Shown here piece by piece: positions 6,150 through 25,099 of a DNA stretch of 64,000 nucleotides. Location of the stretch: assembly GCA_026129405.1 (NCBI GenBank), contig JAHCID010000001.1, positions 589,237 through 653,236 on the forward strand, read 5' to 3'. Source of the DNA: a bacterium (GTDB taxonomy: Bacteria; Desulfobacterota; Binatia; DP-6). Position 1 is the stretch's first letter. The number at the start of each line of letters is the position of its first letter. The translations under genes and the position numbers were made by a program. Below the pieces are notes generated by a model. It searched no databases and was not told the DNA's origin. It was given only the letters and a program-made list of their open reading frames with translations.

Positions 6150-6968
6150 CTACGGCAGCAGCGTCTCGACCTTCTTCATGCTGAGGCCCAGCGCGAAGGT
6201 GTTGCCGCCGCCGTCGGTGAAGCTGTCGATGCCCGCGCCGCCGTTCACGAGGACACGGCTTGCGAAGGTGGCGTTCGTGAACGTGGCCCCGTCGTCGCCA
6301 CCGGCGAAGGTGAACTGCGCGGGGGCGCCGAACAGCGCGTCGTCGATCGAGATCGTGTCGTTGCCGGCGATGGCCTGCACCCGCACCTTGGAGCGGAACT
6401 CGGAGCTGCCGCCGATGGTGACGTCGTCGTCGCCCTGCCCGTTCGCGATGCGCACGCGATCGGCCGCGGTCACGAGGTCGATGCTGATGCTGTCGTCGCC
6501 GGCGTCGGTCTGAACGATCAAGCGGCCCTGGAACACGTCGGTGCTCAGCACCACCTTGTCGTCGTCGGATCCGGTGGCGATGCGGGTGGTGTCGCCGACC
6601 TCGCAGTCGGTGAGGTCGACGACGTCGGCCCCGGGGCCCGTCAGGATCTCGAGCTTCCGGGGGATCAGCACGTCCTCGATGTAGAGCTCGTCGCTGCCGG
6701 CGGAGAGGTCGATCTTCACGTTGCGGACGACGCCCGCGACGGTGGTCACGACCAGTCCGTTGACGGTGGTGCCGTTCAGCCCCTCGAGCTCGAACTCGTC
6801 CGGGTTGGCGCCGGGGCCGATGCGGATCGCGTTGTCGATGACGTCGCCCGTCACTCGCAGGGAGCCGCCGAAGACGAGTGCGGTCACGTTGCCTGCGGCG
6901 TGCGCGCTGCACGCCCCTATGGCCGAGAGGAGCGCAAACGCGCGACAGAACGTGGTGAGACGGTGCAT
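6150..6968 (-). CDS. secreted acidic repeat protein, unknown function
   Basis: 272 residues. The ATG at 6968 was chosen over longer readings because GGAGG lies 9 bases upstream and a signal peptide follows at once (hydrophobic residues 9-24, possible cleavage after AHA, or a lipobox-like I-G-A-C20). The mature part is a run of short beta-strand units rich in Asp, Gly, Ile and Thr, with recurring G-x-D-x-[IV] patterns such as GADVVDL, GSDDDKVV, GDDSISI, GNDTISI and GDDGATF. This resembles a beta-helix or RTX-like beta-roll, but no exact nonapeptide array is seen, so calcium binding is only possible. No enzyme motif. It lies 34 bases upstream of the CoA-transferase gene on the same strand. Confidence 0.75.
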   Translation of the reverse strand: MHRLTTFCRAFALLSAIGACSAHAAGNVTALVFGGSLRVTGDVIDNAIRIGPGANPDEFELEGLNGTTVNGLVVTTVAGVVRNVKIDLSAGSDELYIEDVLIPRKLEILTGPGADVVDLTDCEVGDTTRIATGSDDDKVVLSTDVFQGRLIVQTDAGDDSISIDLVTAADRVRIANGQGDDDVTIGGSSEFRSKVRVQAIAGNDTISIDDALFGAPAQFTFAGGDDGATFTNATFASRVLVNGGAGIDSFTDGGGNTFALGLSMKKVETLLP

Positions 6969-7020
6969 CCGGAAACCTCCGGACCGGAATCCTTCCCGCA
7001 GCACGACGCTGCACGTCAAG

Positions 7021-7041
7021 AAAAAACGCGTGAACGACGCG
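7021..7041 (-). terminator. intrinsic terminator behind the MoxR-VWA-CaiB operon
   Basis: Read on the minus strand, a perfect 5-bp stem CGCGT/ACGCG with a 5-base loop is followed directly by six T. It lies about 40 bases after the stop codon of the CoA-transferase gene at 7082 and before the secreted-protein gene at 6968, where an operon end is expected. It is the only hairpin plus T-run I see in the window. Confidence 0.65.
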
Positions 7042-7081
7042 GACTCTGCCGCACCGCGCATGGACGACGCCATCGAGATGG

Positions 7082-8233
7082 CTATCTAGTACCCCACGCA
7101 CGTGCGACGCGGGCGTCGTCGGCGCCCGGAACGGGTGGCGGTGCCGTGCGCCATGGCAGGTCGCCGAGGCGGAACGGCGCCCCCGGGAACGGCAGGCGGC
7201 GGCCGAGGCCGGGGTGGTCGAGCGGCACGAAGAAGCCGCGCGCGGCGAGCTGTGGGTCGTGGAGCAGCGCCTCCGGCGCCCGCACCGCGGCGAACGGCAA
7301 GCGGCGGAGCCGCGCGCCTTCGTGCAGCTCCGCGACGGTGTATCGGGCCGCGAAGCGGTCGAGCGCGCCGAAGAGCCGCTCGGCCTGCTCCTGCCGCACC
7401 GCCGGCGCTTCGAGCGCGGGGTCGTCGAGGCCGGGGTCGTCGATGCCGTCGGCGCGCATCCACTCGCGCAACGTCGTCCAGTCGCCGAGCGTGCAGTGCA
7501 GCGCCCAGCCGTCGCGGCAGCGTCCGACGCGGAAGTGCCGCGTCCAGTGCAACGTGCCCTGCCGCTGCGCGACGCGGCCGTCCTGGTGGAAGAGGCCGGG
7601 CACGTGCTCGAGCGCGGCGGCGACGGCCGCGTGCAGGCTCACGTCCACGTGCTGGCCGGTGCCGCCGGCGTCGCGGGCGAGCAGCGCCGCGACGATCCCG
7701 ATCGCCGCCTGGATGCCCGCCTGATGGTACGCCTGGAGGCCGGCCATGCGCAGCGGTGGACCGCCGGGATCGCCGTTCACCGCGAGCATGCCGCCGAGCG
7801 CCTGCGCGACGGTGTCCGTCGCGCGCCAGTCGCGCCACGGCCCGGTCTGGCCGAACGGCGTGATCGAGGCGACGACGAGCTGCGGGTGTGCCGTCCCGAG
7901 CCGGGCGAGCGTGCCGCCCGGCGGTCCCGTCTCGACGACGACGTCGGCCGCCGCCGCGAGCCGTGCGAGGCGTGCACGGCCCGGGCGCGTCGCCGGGTCG
8001 CAGACGACGCTGCCCTTCCCCGCCGCGTAGCACCAATGGAAGACGCTGGCGTCGGCCGGCGGCAGGCCGTCCCAGAACGGCGGCAGCGCCCGCAGCGGGC
8101 TGCCCCCCGGCGGCTCGATGAGCACGACGTCGGCCCCCATGGCCGCGAGCAGGCGACCCGCGAACGCGCCGGAGAGATCGGCGCAGTCGAGCACGCGCAC
8201 GCCTGCGAGGGCCCCGGGCACGAACGCGCTCAT
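7082..8233 (-). CDS. CaiB/BaiF family (family III) CoA transferase
   Basis: 383 residues. The ATG overlaps the VWA-gene stop by 4 bases (ATGA), so a long upstream reading in the same frame was rejected. The family signature is present: GVRVLDCADLSGAFAGRLLAAMGADVVLIE at the N-terminus (cut here to its ends GVRVLD and VVLIE as key parts), an AGKGSVVCD strand and GQHVD197VSLHAAV with the catalytic-type Asp. It would transfer CoA between acyl acids; substrate unknown. It is the last gene of a MoxR ATPase - VWA - CoA transferase operon and is followed by an intrinsic terminator. Coupling of a CoA transferase to a MoxR/VWA chaperone pair is unusual and may mean the pair matures or remodels this or a related enzyme (inference). 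Confidence 0.92.
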   Translation of the reverse strand: MSAFVPGALAGVRVLDCADLSGAFAGRLLAAMGADVVLIEPPGGSPLRALPPFWDGLPPADASVFHWCYAAGKGSVVCDPATRPGRARLARLAAAADVVVETGPPGGTLARLGTAHPQLVVASITPFGQTGPWRDWRATDTVAQALGGMLAVNGDPGGPPLRMAGLQAYHQAGIQAAIGIVAALLARDAGGTGQHVDVSLHAAVAAALEHVPGLFHQDGRVAQRQGTLHWTRHFRVGRCRDGWALHCTLGDWTTLREWMRADGIDDPGLDDPALEAPAVRQEQAERLFGALDRFAARYTVAELHEGARLRRLPFAAVRAPEALLHDPQLAARGFFVPLDHPGLGRRLPFPGAPFRLGDLPWRTAPPPVPGADDARVARAWGTR

Positions 8234-18418: not shown

Positions 18419-20581
18419 CTACTGGCAGACCTCGGGCGCCATCGCCTGGAGCCGGGCGGCGAGCTGATCGCCGCCCGCGCTGCTGGCGCGACCGCGTGAC
18501 GAGCGCAGCACCTGGCAGGCCTCGGCGAGCATGCCGCCGTCGCGCAGCAGCCCGACCTGGGCGATGCGCGCCTCGTACCAGCCGGTGCCGCCGACCGGCG
18601 CCGCGTCGAGGACGCGCCGCCAGTAGGCGAGTGCGCCGTTGCGGTCGCCCGCTTCGGCCGCCGCCTTGGCGGCGCCGCGCAGCGCCTCGGACGAGGTGGG
18701 ATCGGCGATCAGGATCTCGTCGTAGAGCTTGCGCGCCGCGGCCGGGTCGCCGCCGCGCAGCTCGAGGTCGGCGACGAGGATCTTGTCGGCCGGCGCGCCG
18801 CTCGCCTGCGCGAGCGCCTCGTAGACGCGGCGCGCGAGCGCTTGCGCCTGCGTCTTCTCGGCGCCGGTCGCCGTCTGCGCGCGCTGCGAGAGGTCTTTGC
18901 CGAGGCGGCGCAGCGTCTTCGTCTTGTCGCCGTCGGTGGTGAGCCAGGCGGCGAGGTCGGCGTCGGCACCGTCGAGCTTGCCCGTGGCGACGCGGGACTC
19001 GAGCCGTGCACCGTGCACGCGCGGGTAGAGCTCCTTCGCGTTCGGGTACTTCTCCTCGAAGCCGCCCAGCAGCTCGACGACCGCGGCGTCGTCCGGGGGC
19101 GTCGAGGCGGCGGCGACCAGCGCGCCCATCAGGGCCGCGCGCGCGACCATGTCCTCGTCGGCGCCCTTGGCCGGTGTGGTCTTCACGATCTCGCGGAAGC
19201 CGGCGACGATCGCGGCCCGCTCCTCCTGCGTCGTCTTCGGCGAGAGCGCGCCGACCTTGCACTCGAGGACGCCCATGCGCGCTTTCGACGCGTAGGCGCC
19301 GCCGGCGACCTTCGTCCACTCGGCGGCGGCGCGGGCGCAGTCGCCCTTCGCCCGGTAGAGGTCGCCGAGGAGCCAGCGCGCCTCGGCGGCACCGTCGGCG
19401 CTCGGCTTGCCGGCGAGGTAGGTCTCGAGCGCCTGCTGGAACTCGGCGTCGAGCGCGGGCTTTCCCTGGCGCGCGACGTCGAGGGCGCGGAAGCGGTAGT
19501 ACGCGGCCTCGCGGGCGCGCGGGCTGTCGGGGTACTCGCGCACGAGCACGGCGAAGGTCTCGACGGCCTCGCTCGCCCGGCCCGCGTTCAGGCTGCACCC
19601 GGCCTGCATGTAGAGGATCTCGGGACGCCACCTGGCGCGGCCCGCGTCCTGCGCGGCGGCGCTGGCGGCGACGAGCGGGGCGAGGTCGCCGCAGCGTCCC
19701 CGATCGAGCGCGAGCTGCGCGGCGAGGTAGAGGCCCCAGCTCGAGCGGATGCCGGCGGGCGCGCCGTTGCCGAGCTTCTCGGCGACGAGACCACCGATGC
19801 GGTCGGGCCACGGCCCGCCGCGGGCGGCGAGGCCACGTGCGAGATCGAACGCGTCCTTCTGCAGGGAGGCGTCGTTCGGCGCCTTCGGCAGCCAGTCGGC
19901 GAGCTTGCCCGCGAGCACCTCGGGGTCGTTCGGGTCGGGCGGCGGCGGCTCGCTCGATGCTTCCTTGCCGCCGGCGGCACGGCGGTCGACCTCGGCGAGC
20001 GCGACCTTCGCCTTCTGCGCCGTGCGCGGCATGCCTGCGGCCTCGCGCAGGTCGGCGCGCGCCTTCGCCCAGTCGCCGAGGTCGAGGTAGGCGAGGCCGC
20101 GGCCGTAGGTCGCCTCGGCCTGGATGTCGGGCGGCACCTCGCCGCTCGTGTAGGGCTCGAAGCTCTCGACCGACTTCGTCAGCAGCGACCGCTTGCGCTT
20201 CGGGTCGGCGACGAGGTTGGCGCCCTGATAGCGTACCCACGCGAGGTGGTAGCCGACGACGAGGCCCTGCACCTCGGCGTCGCGGTAGGCCTGGCTCTCG
20301 AAGAGCTGCTCGATGTCGCCGTCGCGCTCGACGACGGCGTCGCGCTGGCGGTTGAGCTCGTCCTCGAGCTTCTGCTTGGCGGCGGCGAGGTCGCGCTCGA
20401 GGTCCGGGAACGCCGCCGCGGCGGCGTCCTTCTGGCCTTTCTCGAGCTGGTCGTAGAAGCGCCGCGCACGGGCCTCGAGCCCGGGTACGTCCTGCGCCCG
20501 CGCCGGTGCGGCGACCGCCAGCAGCAGGGCCGCGGCCAGCGCCGGGGCGGCGCGCCGCCACGCCGTCCCGAGGCGCGTCAC
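18419..20581 (-). CDS. periplasmic TPR protein of an ExbBD-linked operon
   Basis: 720 residues from a GTG overlapping the ExbD-like stop by 4 bases (GTGA). Residues 1-30 are a signal peptide ending in ARAQ. A coiled-coil-prone stretch (about 35-95, [16 protein letters not shown] onward) is followed by many helix-turn-helix repeats of about 34 residues with TPR spacing, for example around [27 protein letters not shown] and [15 protein letters not shown]. It is therefore a periplasmic scaffold for protein binding. Coupled to the proton-channel pair and the TonB/VWA-type protein, it is the likely periplasmic receiver or adaptor of that motor (inference). No enzyme motif is seen. Confidence 0.85.
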
Positions 20582-20988
20582 TCCGAGGCCAGGGCGAAGC
20601 CGCTCGCGCCCGCCTCCTTGGCGAGACCGAGGACGCGCACGACCTCGCCGAGCACGACCTCGCGGTCGCCGGCGAGGATCACGACCTTCTCCGACGAGCG
20701 CGCGAGCGAGTCCTTCAATACCGCCGCGAGCGCGGCGTCGTCGCCGGGCACGGGACGGTCGTTCACGTAGATCTCGCGCGACGGCGTCATCGTCACCATG
20801 ACGCCCTTCGTCTCCTGCTCCTCCTGCGCGGTCTCCGGCAGCTCGACGTCGGCCGGCTTCATCATCGCCGAGGTGGTGATCATGAAGATGATGAGCAGGA
20901 CGAGGAAGACGTCCGTCAGCGGCGTGACGTTGATCTCCGCCATGATGCGCCGGCGGCCGCCGCCGGCGGCGGGGCTACTGAACGCCAT
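20578..20988 (-). CDS. ExbD/TolR family biopolymer transport protein
   Basis: 136 residues. GGAGGG lies 4 bases upstream of the ATG. A short cytoplasmic N-terminus is followed by one membrane helix with the family motif INVTPLTD26[10 protein letters not shown], whose Asp is the proton-carrying residue of ExbD and TolR. The periplasmic part (about 45-136) ends in the usual alpha/beta domain. With the ExbB-like protein it forms a proton-driven motor in the inner membrane. The gene overlaps the ExbB-like gene by 14 bases and the TPR gene by 4. Confidence 0.94.
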
Positions 20989-21715
20989 TGGCCCTCCGGC
21001 CGGCGACCACCGCCTCGATCACCCGGCCGCTGCCGATGCGCAGCGCCGCTTCGATGCGGTCCACGCGCGCCATGAAGTAGTTGTAGAGCACCACCGCGAT
21101 GATGCCGACGGCGAGCCCGAGCGCGGTCGCGATGAGCGCTTCGGAGATGCCGCTGGCGACGACGGCGAAGCCGCCGGTGCCCGCGAGCGCGATCGCGTGG
21201 AAGGCGCGGATGATGCCGAGCACCGTGCCGAAGAGGCCGATGAACGGCGCCGCCGAGCCGATGGTGCCGAGGATCCACAGGTTCGACGTCGCACCCTGCA
21301 CCTCCTCGTAGGTGCGCTCCTGGGCCACCTTCTCGAGCTCGTCGACCGGGATGGCGCTGCCGTCCTCGAGCACGTCGCCGTAGATGCGGCGCGCCGGGCA
21401 GGCGTTGTGCGCGCCGACCGAAGCGAGCGCCGCCTTCCAGTCGCCGCGCGCGAGCAGCGGCACCACCGACGCGGTGAGGCGCGCCGTCGAGCCGATGACG
21501 CCGCGCAGGCTCCAGAGCCGCTCGAGCGCGATGGCGAGCACGAGGATGGAGCAGAGGAGCAGCGGATAGGTCGAGAGCGCGCCCTGATGGATCAGGGCGA
21601 TGACGTCGAGGTCCTGCGTGGGGTCCGGTGCCGCGAGCATCCCGAGATCGGGGGCGGCGCCGGGCAGCGTGGTCGGCGTCGGCGACGCCAGCGTGGTGAC
21701 GGTGGTCGGATCCAT
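20975..21715 (-). CDS. MotA/TolQ/ExbB family proton channel protein
   Basis: 246 residues with GAGGAG 6 bases before the ATG. A Thr/Pro-rich N-terminal tail of about 40 residues precedes three membrane helices: about 48-66 ([17 protein letters not shown]), about 150-172 ([17 protein letters not shown]) and about 188-212 ([19 protein letters not shown]). The GLFGTVxGI and EALxATAxGLxVAI blocks are the TolQ/ExbB signature. It is the pentameric stator subunit that works with the ExbD-like protein to convert proton flow into movement of a TonB- or TolA-like partner. Here the partner is probably the VWA protein encoded 9 bases upstream. Confidence 0.95.
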
Positions 21716-21724
21716 CGATGCTCC

Positions 21725-22990
21725 TCAGGATTTCCCGCGTGCGACGCGGGTCACGTCCTTCTCCCATTGCGTGCCGAAGGCGAGGACCAGCACGTGGCGC
21801 ATGAGCGCTCCGCCCTCGCCGAGCGCGATCGAGTCGCCGCCGCCGGAGCGGGCGATCTGGCCGAAGCTCTGCTTCACCTCGGCGTAGAAGTCCGGCAGCG
21901 ACGAGATTTCGGTGGGCTCCTCGCCGTAGAGCCAGCGGTGGAGCTTCTTCTCGTGCTCCTCGTGCAGGCGCTGGCTCACGTCGACGGTGCTGATGACGCC
22001 GCCCTTCGCGACCCATTCCGAAGCGAGCGAGGCGATGGCGGCGCGGTCCTCGTCGTGCGGCGGCGAGCTGCCGATCAGGACGATCACCTTCTTCGCGTCG
22101 GGCCGCCACGAGAGCTGGCGCATCGCGGCCTGGAGGCCGTCGAGTACTGCTTCCTTCCAGTCCCCGCCGCCCTCGGCGACGATCCCGCCGAGGAAGCTCT
22201 GGACCTTCTTCGTGTTGAGCGTGAGGTCCGACCACTTGACGACGAAGTCCTCACTCTGGCGCGGCGCGGTCGCGATCTTGTCGTCGGCCTTGTCACGGTA
22301 GACGACGGCGCCGATGCGCGCCGACGGCACCAGACGCTGCATCGTGAAGGCCATGTCACCGAGACGGCGCTTCAGATCGTCGATGACGTTCTGCATCGAG
22401 CCCGAGGCGTCGACCACGATCGCGACGTCGAGGCCGCCCTTGCGCAGGGTGCCGACGTACTTGCCGAAGGCGGTGCCGAGCGAGATGCCGAAGCCGCCTC
22501 CGCCGCCGCCCATGCCGAGGCCGCCCGTACCCGAGCCCTTCGACGCGAAGCGCGAGCCGAGGTCGCTGCCCATGCCCACCGGCTTGGCCGGCCGCGCGAA
22601 CGCGACCACCGGCCCGGTCTTCTTCGCCGCCGTGGACGCCACCGCCTTCGGCCGCGCGGGCTGCGGGATCACCACCGCGTCCGGCTTGCGCGTCTCGGCG
22701 ATGAGATCCTTCACGTCGTCGTCCTGCTTCGCTTCGCTCGGGCGCACCAGCTCCGGCAGGTCCTCGAGCGAGAAGATCTGTCGCCGCGCCTTGTCCCCCA
22801 GACCCACGCCGCCGCCGGAGCCGATGCCGACGCCCGGGCCGATGCCGATGCCGAAGCCGCCGCCCACCCCGACCACGTCGAAGATCAGCAGCAGGATGAG
22901 GACGACGTGCACCACTGCCGAGACGCCGAAGGCGCCGAGCATGCGGGGAAACCGGCTTCTGGTGGTGGCCTCGAGGACGAGGGAGGGCAT
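21725..22990 (-). CDS. TonB-like anchored VWA domain protein
   Basis: 421 residues. The N-terminal 40 residues look like TonB: a basic start and one membrane helix, with S24-A-V-V-H28 matching the Ser-x3-His pair of the TonB helix that contacts ExbB/ExbD. Then come a Gly-rich stretch (43-66), a Pro/Lys/Ala linker (101-140) and a second Gly-rich hinge (150-170). In place of the TonB C-terminal domain there is a von Willebrand A domain (about 186-360) with D194-A-S196-G-S198. The later metal positions look changed (GGGDWKEA and LIGSSPPH), so metal binding is uncertain. First gene of the ExbB-ExbD-TPR operon. I read it as a motor-driven periplasmic VWA effector; this is inference. Confidence 0.85.
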   Translation of the reverse strand: MPSLVLEATTRSRFPRMLGAFGVSAVVHVVLILLLIFDVVGVGGGFGIGIGPGVGIGSGGGVGLGDKARRQIFSLEDLPELVRPSEAKQDDDVKDLIAETRKPDAVVIPQPARPKAVASTAAKKTGPVVAFARPAKPVGMGSDLGSRFASKGSGTGGLGMGGGGGGFGISLGTAFGKYVGTLRKGGLDVAIVVDASGSMQNVIDDLKRRLGDMAFTMQRLVPSARIGAVVYRDKADDKIATAPRQSEDFVVKWSDLTLNTKKVQSFLGGIVAEGGGDWKEAVLDGLQAAMRQLSWRPDAKKVIVLIGSSPPHDEDRAAIASLASEWVAKGGVISTVDVSQRLHEEHEKKLHRWLYGEEPTEISSLPDFYAEVKQSFGQIARSGGGDSIALGEGGALMRHVLVLAFGTQWEKDVTRVARGKS

Positions 22991-23079: not shown

Positions 23080-23850
23080 TCACCAGTGGAGGCGGGAGCG
23101 CAGGGTGCGGGCCGCGCTGCGGCTGACGGCGACCTCGCTGTTCGCCTGGTCGCGCATGACGAGCTTGTAGCGACCACCGAACCAGGGAACGATCTCCTTC
23201 ACGTGCTGCAGGTTCACGAGGCTCGCCTTGTGCGCCCGGAAGAACACGGCCGCGTCGAGACGCTCCTCGAGCTCGCGCAGCGTGTAGTTCGTCATGAACC
23301 CGCGCTCCGCGTTGTGGGCGTAGACCAGCCGGTGCTCCACCCCGAACCACCGCACCTCCTCCACCGGCAGGAGCAGGATGCGCCGTCCGCTGTAGACGGG
23401 CACCTGCGTCACGTACTGGGGGGCCTTGCCGTCGGCGAGCCGGCGCAGCATCGACTCGAGCTCCTGGCCCTGTGCGCCGGTCGCGCGCCGCTGGCGGACG
23501 CGGTCGACGGCGGCCTCGACGCGCTGGCGGCCGTACGGCTTCAGCAGGTAGTCGATCGCCTCGACCTCGAAGGCGCGGATCGCGTACTCGTCGTAGGCCG
23601 TGGAGAACACCACCTGCGGCATCGGGCCGCGCAGGTTCTTCAGGACCTCGAAGCCGTCCATGCCCGGCATCTGCACGTCGAGGAAGACGAGGTCGGGCTG
23701 CGACTCCTCGATCATGCGCACCGCCTCGAGGCCGTCGCGCGCCTCGCCGACCACCTGGACGTCGCCCAGCTCGGCGAGGAAGCCGGTGAGACGATCGCGA
23801 GCGAGCTTCTCGTCGTCGACGACGAGCGTACGCAGCGATGCGCTCGTCAT
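23080..23850 (-). CDS. LytR/AlgR-type response regulator (REC-LytTR)
   Basis: 256 residues. The ATG overlaps the kinase stop by one base (TGATG). REC domain 6-125 with the acidic pocket V-D12-D13, phospho-acceptor D58 in VFLDVQMPGMDG and the Lys of YLLKPYG. LytTR DNA-binding domain about 150-256 with FFRAHKASLVNLQHV and a basic end. It should be phosphorylated by the LytS-like kinase and bind direct repeats upstream of targets. The TonB/VWA operon starts 89 bases downstream on the same strand and is the closest candidate target. Confidence 0.95.
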   Translation of the reverse strand: MTSASLRTLVVDDEKLARDRLTGFLAELGDVQVVGEARDGLEAVRMIEESQPDLVFLDVQMPGMDGFEVLKNLRGPMPQVVFSTAYDEYAIRAFEVEAIDYLLKPYGRQRVEAAVDRVRQRRATGAQGQELESMLRRLADGKAPQYVTQVPVYSGRRILLLPVEEVRWFGVEHRLVYAHNAERGFMTNYTLRELEERLDAAVFFRAHKASLVNLQHVKEIVPWFGGRYKLVMRDQANSEVAVSRSAARTLRSRLHW

Positions 23851-24971
23851 CAGGCCGCCTCGGCGGGTACCGCGGGCAGACGCAGTCGCACGACCGTGCC
23901 GCGCCCCGGCGCGCTCTCGATGTCCGGCAGATGCGCGGGACCGTAGAGCCGCTCGAGGCGCTGGCGCAGGTTCGAGAGGCCGACGCCGCGGTGATAGACG
24001 TCGTCGAGGATCGGGCCCGACATGCCGAGGCCGTCGTCGCCGACGGTGAGCGTGAGCGTGTCGCCGTCGACGTGGGCGTCGATCGACACGGTGCCGACCC
24101 CGACCTTGCGCGACAGCCCGTGCTTCAGCGCGTTCTCGACGAGCGGCTGGAGGATCAGGTTCGGGATCATCTGGCGCAGGCTCTTCGGGTCGATCGTGGT
24201 GCGCACGCGCAGGCGCTCGTCGAACCGGGCGCGCTCGATGTCGAGGTAGGCGCGCGTCATCTGGAGCTCTTCGCCCAGCGGGACGAACTCCTTCTCGGCG
24301 CGATTCAGGATGTAGCGGAACATCTCCGCCAGCCGCTCGACGCAGGCCTCGGCCTTGTCGGGGTCGGAGCGGATCAGCTGCGCGATCGAGTTCAAGCTGT
24401 TGAAGAGGAAGTGCGGGTTGATCTGCGCCCGCAGCGCGGCCAGCTGCGCCGTCGCGGCCAGCTCGGTGAGCTCGCGGGCGCGGCTCTGGAGCGCTTCGAC
24501 CTGGCGCCAGACGAGGTGGTACGCGATCAGCGTGATGAGGACGGTCGGCACCACCGGCAGCAGCGCGTAGAGTCGCGCCAGCTGCTGGCGGCGCTCCGGC
24601 GTGACGGTGATGTGGTGCTCGGGGCCGGCCGGGATGCCGAACAGCGACGGCGCCCCGAGGAGCCATGCGCCCACCGACGCGGCGAGGAAGCCGAGCGCGA
24701 TGAAGATCACGAACGCGACGATCACCTGCCGCGTGACCTGTGCGGGCAGCGTGCGGCCGCCTAGGCGCGGGAACACCCAGCGCCAGAGCCCGTAGGTGAC
24801 GGCGGCGAAGACCAGGCTGCCGAGGACGAACGTGATCGGCGCCGTCCACGAGCGCCACAGCACGAAGTGCAGCAGGCCGAGATGCATGCCCGTCGCGCAC
24901 CCGGTGCCGAGCACCAGAAGGAGCATCTTGTTGCGACGGCTGGTCGGCATCCCGAGTGGGAGCGGGGCCAT
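23850..24971 (-). CDS. LytS-type sensor histidine kinase
   Basis: 373 residues from the ATG at 24971; a GTG at 25010 and later ATGs are alternatives, none with a strong ribosome site. About four membrane helices occupy residues 15-170, with a short periplasmic loop (about 115-145). The cytoplasmic part has the His_kinase (LytS/YehU) motif LRAQINPHFLFNSLNSI with the phospho-acceptor His, and an HATPase domain with LVENALKHGL and GDDGLGM and GVGLSNLRQRL boxes. It forms a two-component pair with the LytTR regulator, overlapping by one base. The signal is unknown. Confidence 0.93.
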   Translation of the reverse strand: MAPLPLGMPTSRRNKMLLLVLGTGCATGMHLGLLHFVLWRSWTAPITFVLGSLVFAAVTYGLWRWVFPRLGGRTLPAQVTRQVIVAFVIFIALGFLAASVGAWLLGAPSLFGIPAGPEHHITVTPERRQQLARLYALLPVVPTVLITLIAYHLVWRQVEALQSRARELTELAATAQLAALRAQINPHFLFNSLNSIAQLIRSDPDKAEACVERLAEMFRYILNRAEKEFVPLGEELQMTRAYLDIERARFDERLRVRTTIDPKSLRQMIPNLILQPLVENALKHGLSRKVGVGTVSIDAHVDGDTLTLTVGDDGLGMSGPILDDVYHRGVGLSNLRQRLERLYGPAHLPDIESAPGRGTVVRLRLPAVPAEAA

Positions 24972-25099
24972 GCCGGGGACATACCCCGACCCCGTTCCAG
25001 GCCGCCACACTGCTATGCGTCAGCTCCCTTGGCGAGCCGGGCGGGACGAACGGTCCGGATGGCCGGACGAGCCGCCGTGCCCCGGGCGCGTCCGGGCTG

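Follow-up and report, generated by a model that had tools for sequence, protein, structure and literature searches.

A Binatia operon predicted to encode a proton-motive-force-driven envelope transducer that ends in a VWA domain

Introduction

Known proton-driven motors of the bacterial envelope power the uptake of nutrients, secretion, gliding and flagella and help to keep the envelope stable. Closest to the locus described here are the inner-membrane vWA 'force transducers' of Williams-Jones et al. (2025, Mol Biol Evol; PMC12204202), which carry an SHLS helix, are encoded beside tolQR-like and TPR genes and are of unknown function; AF3 docking of homologous vWA transducers on the motor was published in the same paper. 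Literature searches found no experimental work on vWA force transducers. For the Ton motor, a cryo-EM study (PMC12215075) proposed that Ser16 and His20 of TonB signal via ExbB Ser34 and Trp38 to Pro190 in TM3, and noted equivalents of Pro190 in TolQ, MotA and PomA.

We analysed a window of 64,000 nucleotides from a genome of the class Binatia, which holds an ExbB/ExbD operon with a VWA protein. The original prediction had cast this protein as the transducer of its ExbBD motor, in the place of TonB or TolA, and had suggested that the system may be new, knowing of no ExbBD motor described as coupled to a VWA effector. The assignment as transducer is upheld here as the probable reading; the suggestion of novelty falls, since PMC12204202 described the class and modelled it with AF3 in June 2025. 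Judged from sequence by its described features, the module belongs to the vWA force transducer kind, first family, of that paper.

Results

The four genes are arranged in the order VWA-ExbB-ExbD-TPR, with a gap of 9 nt followed by overlaps of 14 and 4 nt, and form a single minus-strand operon. The spacing, strand and lengths (421, 246, 136 and 720 aa) that had been read for the row agree with the ORF coordinates, and the domain identities proposed for all four proteins were recovered by Pfam (VWA, MotA_ExbB, ExbD and several TPR families). The features of the operon are as follows.

21725..22990 (-): predicted VWA force transducer, 421 aa (Pfam VWA, E 4.7e-6; AlphaFold2 model; relatives)
22907..22921 (-): S24-x3-H28, putative TonB/TolA-type motor-docking residues of the TM helix (alignment, n = 24)
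22757..22780 (-): possible motor-box strand QIFSLEDL after the TM helix (by eye; most relatives)
21776..22435 (-): VWA domain, residues about 186-405 (Pfam; AlphaFold2 model; Foldseek matches to integrin beta VWA)
22397..22411 (-): metal-site motif D194-A-S-G-S198 (alignment, n = 24)
22055..22072 (-): VWA loop 3, G-S-S-P-P-H (307-312), usual Asp absent (alignment, n = 24)
20975..21715 (-): ExbB/TolQ-like channel subunit, 246 aa (Pfam MotA_ExbB, 3.6e-30; column counts)
20578..20988 (-): ExbD/TolR-like subunit, 136 aa, with proton Asp26 and T25 (Pfam ExbD, 1.9e-24; D26 invariant)
18419..20581 (-): secreted TPR superhelix protein, 720 aa, candidate partner (Pfam TPR; model pLDDT 90; adjacency in relatives)

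A histidine kinase and response regulator pair (window 23080-25010, minus strand) lies immediately upstream of the operon. Most members of the window's own family have homologues of this pair upstream of VWA, which may place the operon under the control of the pair in that family.

In the AlphaFold2 model of the VWA protein, one N-terminal helix (residues 14-40) is followed by a long linker and a confident VWA core. The linker is of the Gly/Pro type, as had been read from the sequence, and is largely disordered, with residues 44-77 and 111-169 falling below pLDDT 50. Across 24 aligned VWA-protein sequences, H28 is invariant (24/24) and S24 is Ser in 23/24, while most other helix positions are variable; the S-x3-H pair singled out in the original prediction is both present and conserved, as is Asp26 of ExbD. 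Position 35 (L35 in the window protein) is Leu in 13/24 sequences, and the position of the final Ser of SHLS, occupied by V39 in the window protein, is S/T in 10/24. Most relatives have a short beta-prone segment at about the same position after the helix (QIFSLED in the window protein; INVKLR, VDVKII and VHLSLK in others), which by eye possibly resembles the TonB/TolA motor box.

No TonB_C match was found in the VWA protein with Pfam; the VWA domain (Pfam match to residues 188-339) stands in place of a TonB/TolA C-terminal domain. Foldseek and PDB sequence searches put the domain near those of integrin beta and collagen VI, a likeness at the level of fold only, and a plasmid search with the VWA protein returned partial, generic VWA matches only. 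The metal site had been thought partly changed, and the alignment agrees. Neither D194 nor S198 varies, Thr stands at position 196 in 23/24 sequences (Ser in the window), and G275-G276-D277 is kept, so that DxS/TxS and GGD persist; the loop-3 Asp position (S308 in the window) is S/G in 22/24 and D in 2/24, followed by a conserved SPPH. On this alignment, the metal site is modified across the family and has not decayed in the window.

The N-terminus of the TPR protein reads, by eye, as a plausible cleavable signal peptide (ARA|Q) lacking a lipobox Cys, which fits the secreted 720-residue TPR protein originally proposed. Its model is an all-helical superhelix with a mean pLDDT of 90, and Foldseek and PDB searches place it, at fold level only, near CTR9, OGT and other generic superhelices, and also near LbcA.

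A search of genome contigs with a five-row alignment as query gave matches; a single-protein scan of the contigs gave none. Named matches of the alignment search include Candidatus Binatota/Binatia records. The VWA protein is present in 30/38 relatives and in 79/127 genomes of the same class. ExbB adjoins the VWA gene at all 24 relative loci retrieved, and the TPR gene is adjacent at 21 of the 23 that could be scored (L067, at a contig edge, was left out). This adjacency makes the TPR protein the best candidate for the receiver that had been proposed, a partnership that we infer. The TPR gene is lacking at L058 and L060 (family f9), so the TPR protein may not be universal; both loci carry two ExbD/TolR-like genes, and in f9 a small protein without a Pfam match is encoded beside VWA. 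Gene order differs between families: VWA-ExbB-ExbD-TPR in the window's family, ExbB-ExbD-VWA-TPR in most others and VWA-TPR-ExbB-ExbD in G008 and G015. A gene order not conserved elsewhere had been named by the original prediction as evidence against itself; the prediction is not refuted on this count, the gene set being conserved although its order varies. The recurrence of the same four genes together across the class is far above chance, and that they stayed together while their order changed argues strongly for a joint function.

A second, different ExbB/ExbD pair was observed shortly downstream of the VWA module at four loci (L052 5188-6328, L055 16696-18085, L068 16677-18027 and L079 3599-4679). 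The module is also carried by a record titled as a Klebsiella pneumoniae MAG (L075), whose ExbB falls with those of Binatia in the tree; the record is probably a mislabelled or contaminated bin.

Phylogenetic analysis placed the VWA-adjacent ExbBs in one clade, apart from Tol, Ton and other ExbBs (99/98 in the first tree). In a second tree with more rows, the VWA-linked clade was kept (100/99) and two further groups, f2 and f6, were nested inside it; some branches are long and the inner order is tentative. The f2 genomes (G007, G020 and G034) gave no match to the VWA transducer. Their ExbB is 43-50% identical to the window ExbB, and directly beside it is encoded an S-x3-H protein of about 330-340 aa with a TonB_2/TonB_C end; no TPR of the module's family was detected at f2 loci. 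With a TonB-C-terminal transducer at the same place and VWA absent, f2 assigns VWA to the TonB slot, and from these sequences the arm on this one motor clade can be either VWA or TonB-type. In the f6 genomes (G017, G023 and G036) the motor is present and no S-x3-H gene was found nearby. At L048, L049, L070 and L083-L085, VWA and TPR are kept beside an ExbB/ExbD pair of another type; the ExbB of L048, L049 and L070 is 21-24% identical to that of the window.

Other genes were seen at the f2 and f6 loci. In all three f2 genomes, a convergent and apparently secreted protein lies next to the motor genes:

L131 8401-9762, L138 7700-9088 and L142 5504-6919, convergent to the motor genes: f2 VWA + Glucodextran_B protein

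Secreted or lipoprotein-like proteins with NGDGKMDxW-type repeats precede the f2 TonB-type transducer (L131 3741-6229, L138 2907-5348). At f6 loci with the motor and without VWA, a protein of about 130-140 aa follows ExbD (L140 8398-8793, L141 8220-8648); the one scanned had no Pfam match.

The channel residues of the motor were compared with those of the proposed Ton relay. The window ExbB keeps S56, T164 and T197 and has I206 at the TM3 proline site. Members of the VWA-linked clade retain the TM1 Ser and the two pore Thr, the latter being invariant, and Asp26 of ExbD is likewise invariant; the residue before it is T in 30 sequences and C in 2, and V in the Tol/Ton ExbDs of the same genome. 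The TM3 Pro site is I/V/L in 30/30 ExbBs of the VWA-linked clade and in six f2/f6 ExbBs; it is Pro in 22/22 ExbBs outside the clade (class sample). The Trp38 position in TM1 is never Trp in the clade, nor is it Trp in the ExbBs of the genome's own Ton loci. No mention of I/V/L at the TM3 Pro site in this motor clade was found in the cited literature. Loss of the relay Pro and Trp means that coupling in this clade may differ from that in Ton and Tol. It is quite possible, although we hold this tentatively, that a distinct 5:2 motor clade lost the Pro/Trp relay, employs a different mode of coupling and acts as a common base for effectors that can be exchanged, namely VWA plus TPR in most families and a TonB-C-terminal arm in another.

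We also considered whether loss of the TM3 Pro is required for VWA coupling. This was rejected: the VWA-adjacent motors of L048, L049, L070, L083 and L085 keep the Pro, and f2 lacks it yet has a TonB-type arm.

The genome encodes six MotA_ExbB genes; at motor loci other than the VWA operon, names beyond the scanned ExbB, ExbD and TonB domains come from reading the sequences. L061 can be read as a Tol-Pal locus, with TolQ, TolR, TolA, TolB, Pal and a CpoB-like gene; L062 and L063 can be read as Ton loci, each containing TonB and receptor genes, and L065 looks like MotA. S-x3-H also occurs in the L061 TolA helix (GVSAAGH) and in one TonB helix (STFGH). The L061 TolA gene appears split between two frames in a Pro/Lys-rich repeat region (6698-7977), possibly a sequencing or assembly error. 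A fourth TonB_C match (L066) is an orphan gene beside which no motor gene was seen. No separate TonB was found encoded with the ExbBD of the VWA operon, a pairing that the original prediction had named as evidence against itself, and each of the three remaining ExbB/TolQ systems comes with a TolA or TonB of its own.

These loci bear on an alternative, in which the VWA protein is not driven and instead, as a scaffold or sensor anchored in the inner membrane, controls a conventional ExbBD motor serving another TonB. VWA domains are commonly protein-binding scaffolds, the genome does hold the orphan TonB_C gene, and the three f6 genomes keep the motor without a detectable S-x3-H gene nearby. The orphan is, however, lipoprotein-like and lacks an S-x3-H helix, the VWA helix shows conserved docking residues, and in f2 a TonB-type transducer replaces VWA beside the same motor clade. 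We regard this alternative as unlikely.

Less probable still is a surface-motility or adhesin machine like Agl-Glt of Myxococcus, which combines a TolQR-like motor, TPR proteins and the VWA adhesin CglB. The types of part agree, and gliding is also raised as a possibility in PMC12204202. Clustering of neighbouring ORFs, however, found no fifth gene common to the families, the remaining large clusters looking like antisense frames of the four genes, and no other gliding (Glt) component was seen at the loci. CglB, moreover, is a surface adhesin, whereas the VWA domain here is fused to an inner-membrane helix and is not a surface lipoprotein.

That the VWA protein is itself a pore-inserted dimeric rotor, as in the second vWA family of PMC12204202 with its transpore helix, fits a single-TM VWA protein encoded beside a TolQ-like gene but is very improbable, given a bona fide ExbD with Asp26 in the operon and a VWA helix that carries S/H and whose Asp, D38, is conserved only in part of the family. 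A defence system was rejected, there being no PADLOC matches.

Discussion

We consider it likely that the operon encodes a proton-motive-force-driven trans-envelope force transducer like those of Ton and Tol, with the VWA protein as the arm and the TPR protein as its likely partner. In the arrangement that we infer, ExbB (probably five copies) and ExbD (probably two) would form a rotary proton channel. The VWA protein would dock laterally to TM1 of ExbB via S24 and H28 of its single TM helix and would span the periplasm on its disordered linker. Force would then reach the VWA head, which may pull or remodel a partner where TonB and TolA use their C-terminal domain. The most likely partner would be the co-encoded periplasmic TPR protein, acting as an adaptor to an outer-membrane or peptidoglycan target in a role perhaps analogous to that of CpoB in Tol-Pal.

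That a transducer with a protein-binding VWA head has been kept so widely implies a further energised process in the envelope. The exchange of VWA for a TonB C-terminal domain, together with the missing relay Pro, opens a direct experimental way to ask how motors of the ExbB type sense their arms and drive them.

The module shares with Tol-Pal (TolQ-TolR-TolA, TolB, Pal and CpoB) the topology of motor and transducer and a periplasmic TPR protein like CpoB. In contrast to Tol-Pal, a VWA domain replaces the TolA C-terminus, no TolB or Pal appeared as a conserved neighbour at VWA loci when neighbouring ORFs were clustered, and the genome has a separate Tol-Pal locus. With Ton (ExbB-ExbD-TonB) it shares the channel subunits, the S-x3-H docking residues and the linker and, in f2, a TonB-type C-terminus; unlike Ton, the operon has no TonB C-terminal domain or receptor gene, and the TM3 Pro of ExbB is replaced by I/V/L.

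The closest likeness is to the Tichowtungia vWA family of PMC12204202, which has the same S-x3-H TM helix, disordered linker and C-terminal vWA domain, tolQ/tolR-like neighbours and a TPR gene nearby. The loci differ in gene order and in the single ExbD found here, PVC loci often having two heterologous tolR-like genes, and Binatia are not named in the text of that paper. The kind had thus been described already; what appears new here, at the level of sequence, is its conservation across the class, the exchange of arms in f2 on one motor clade and the replacement of the TM3 Pro.
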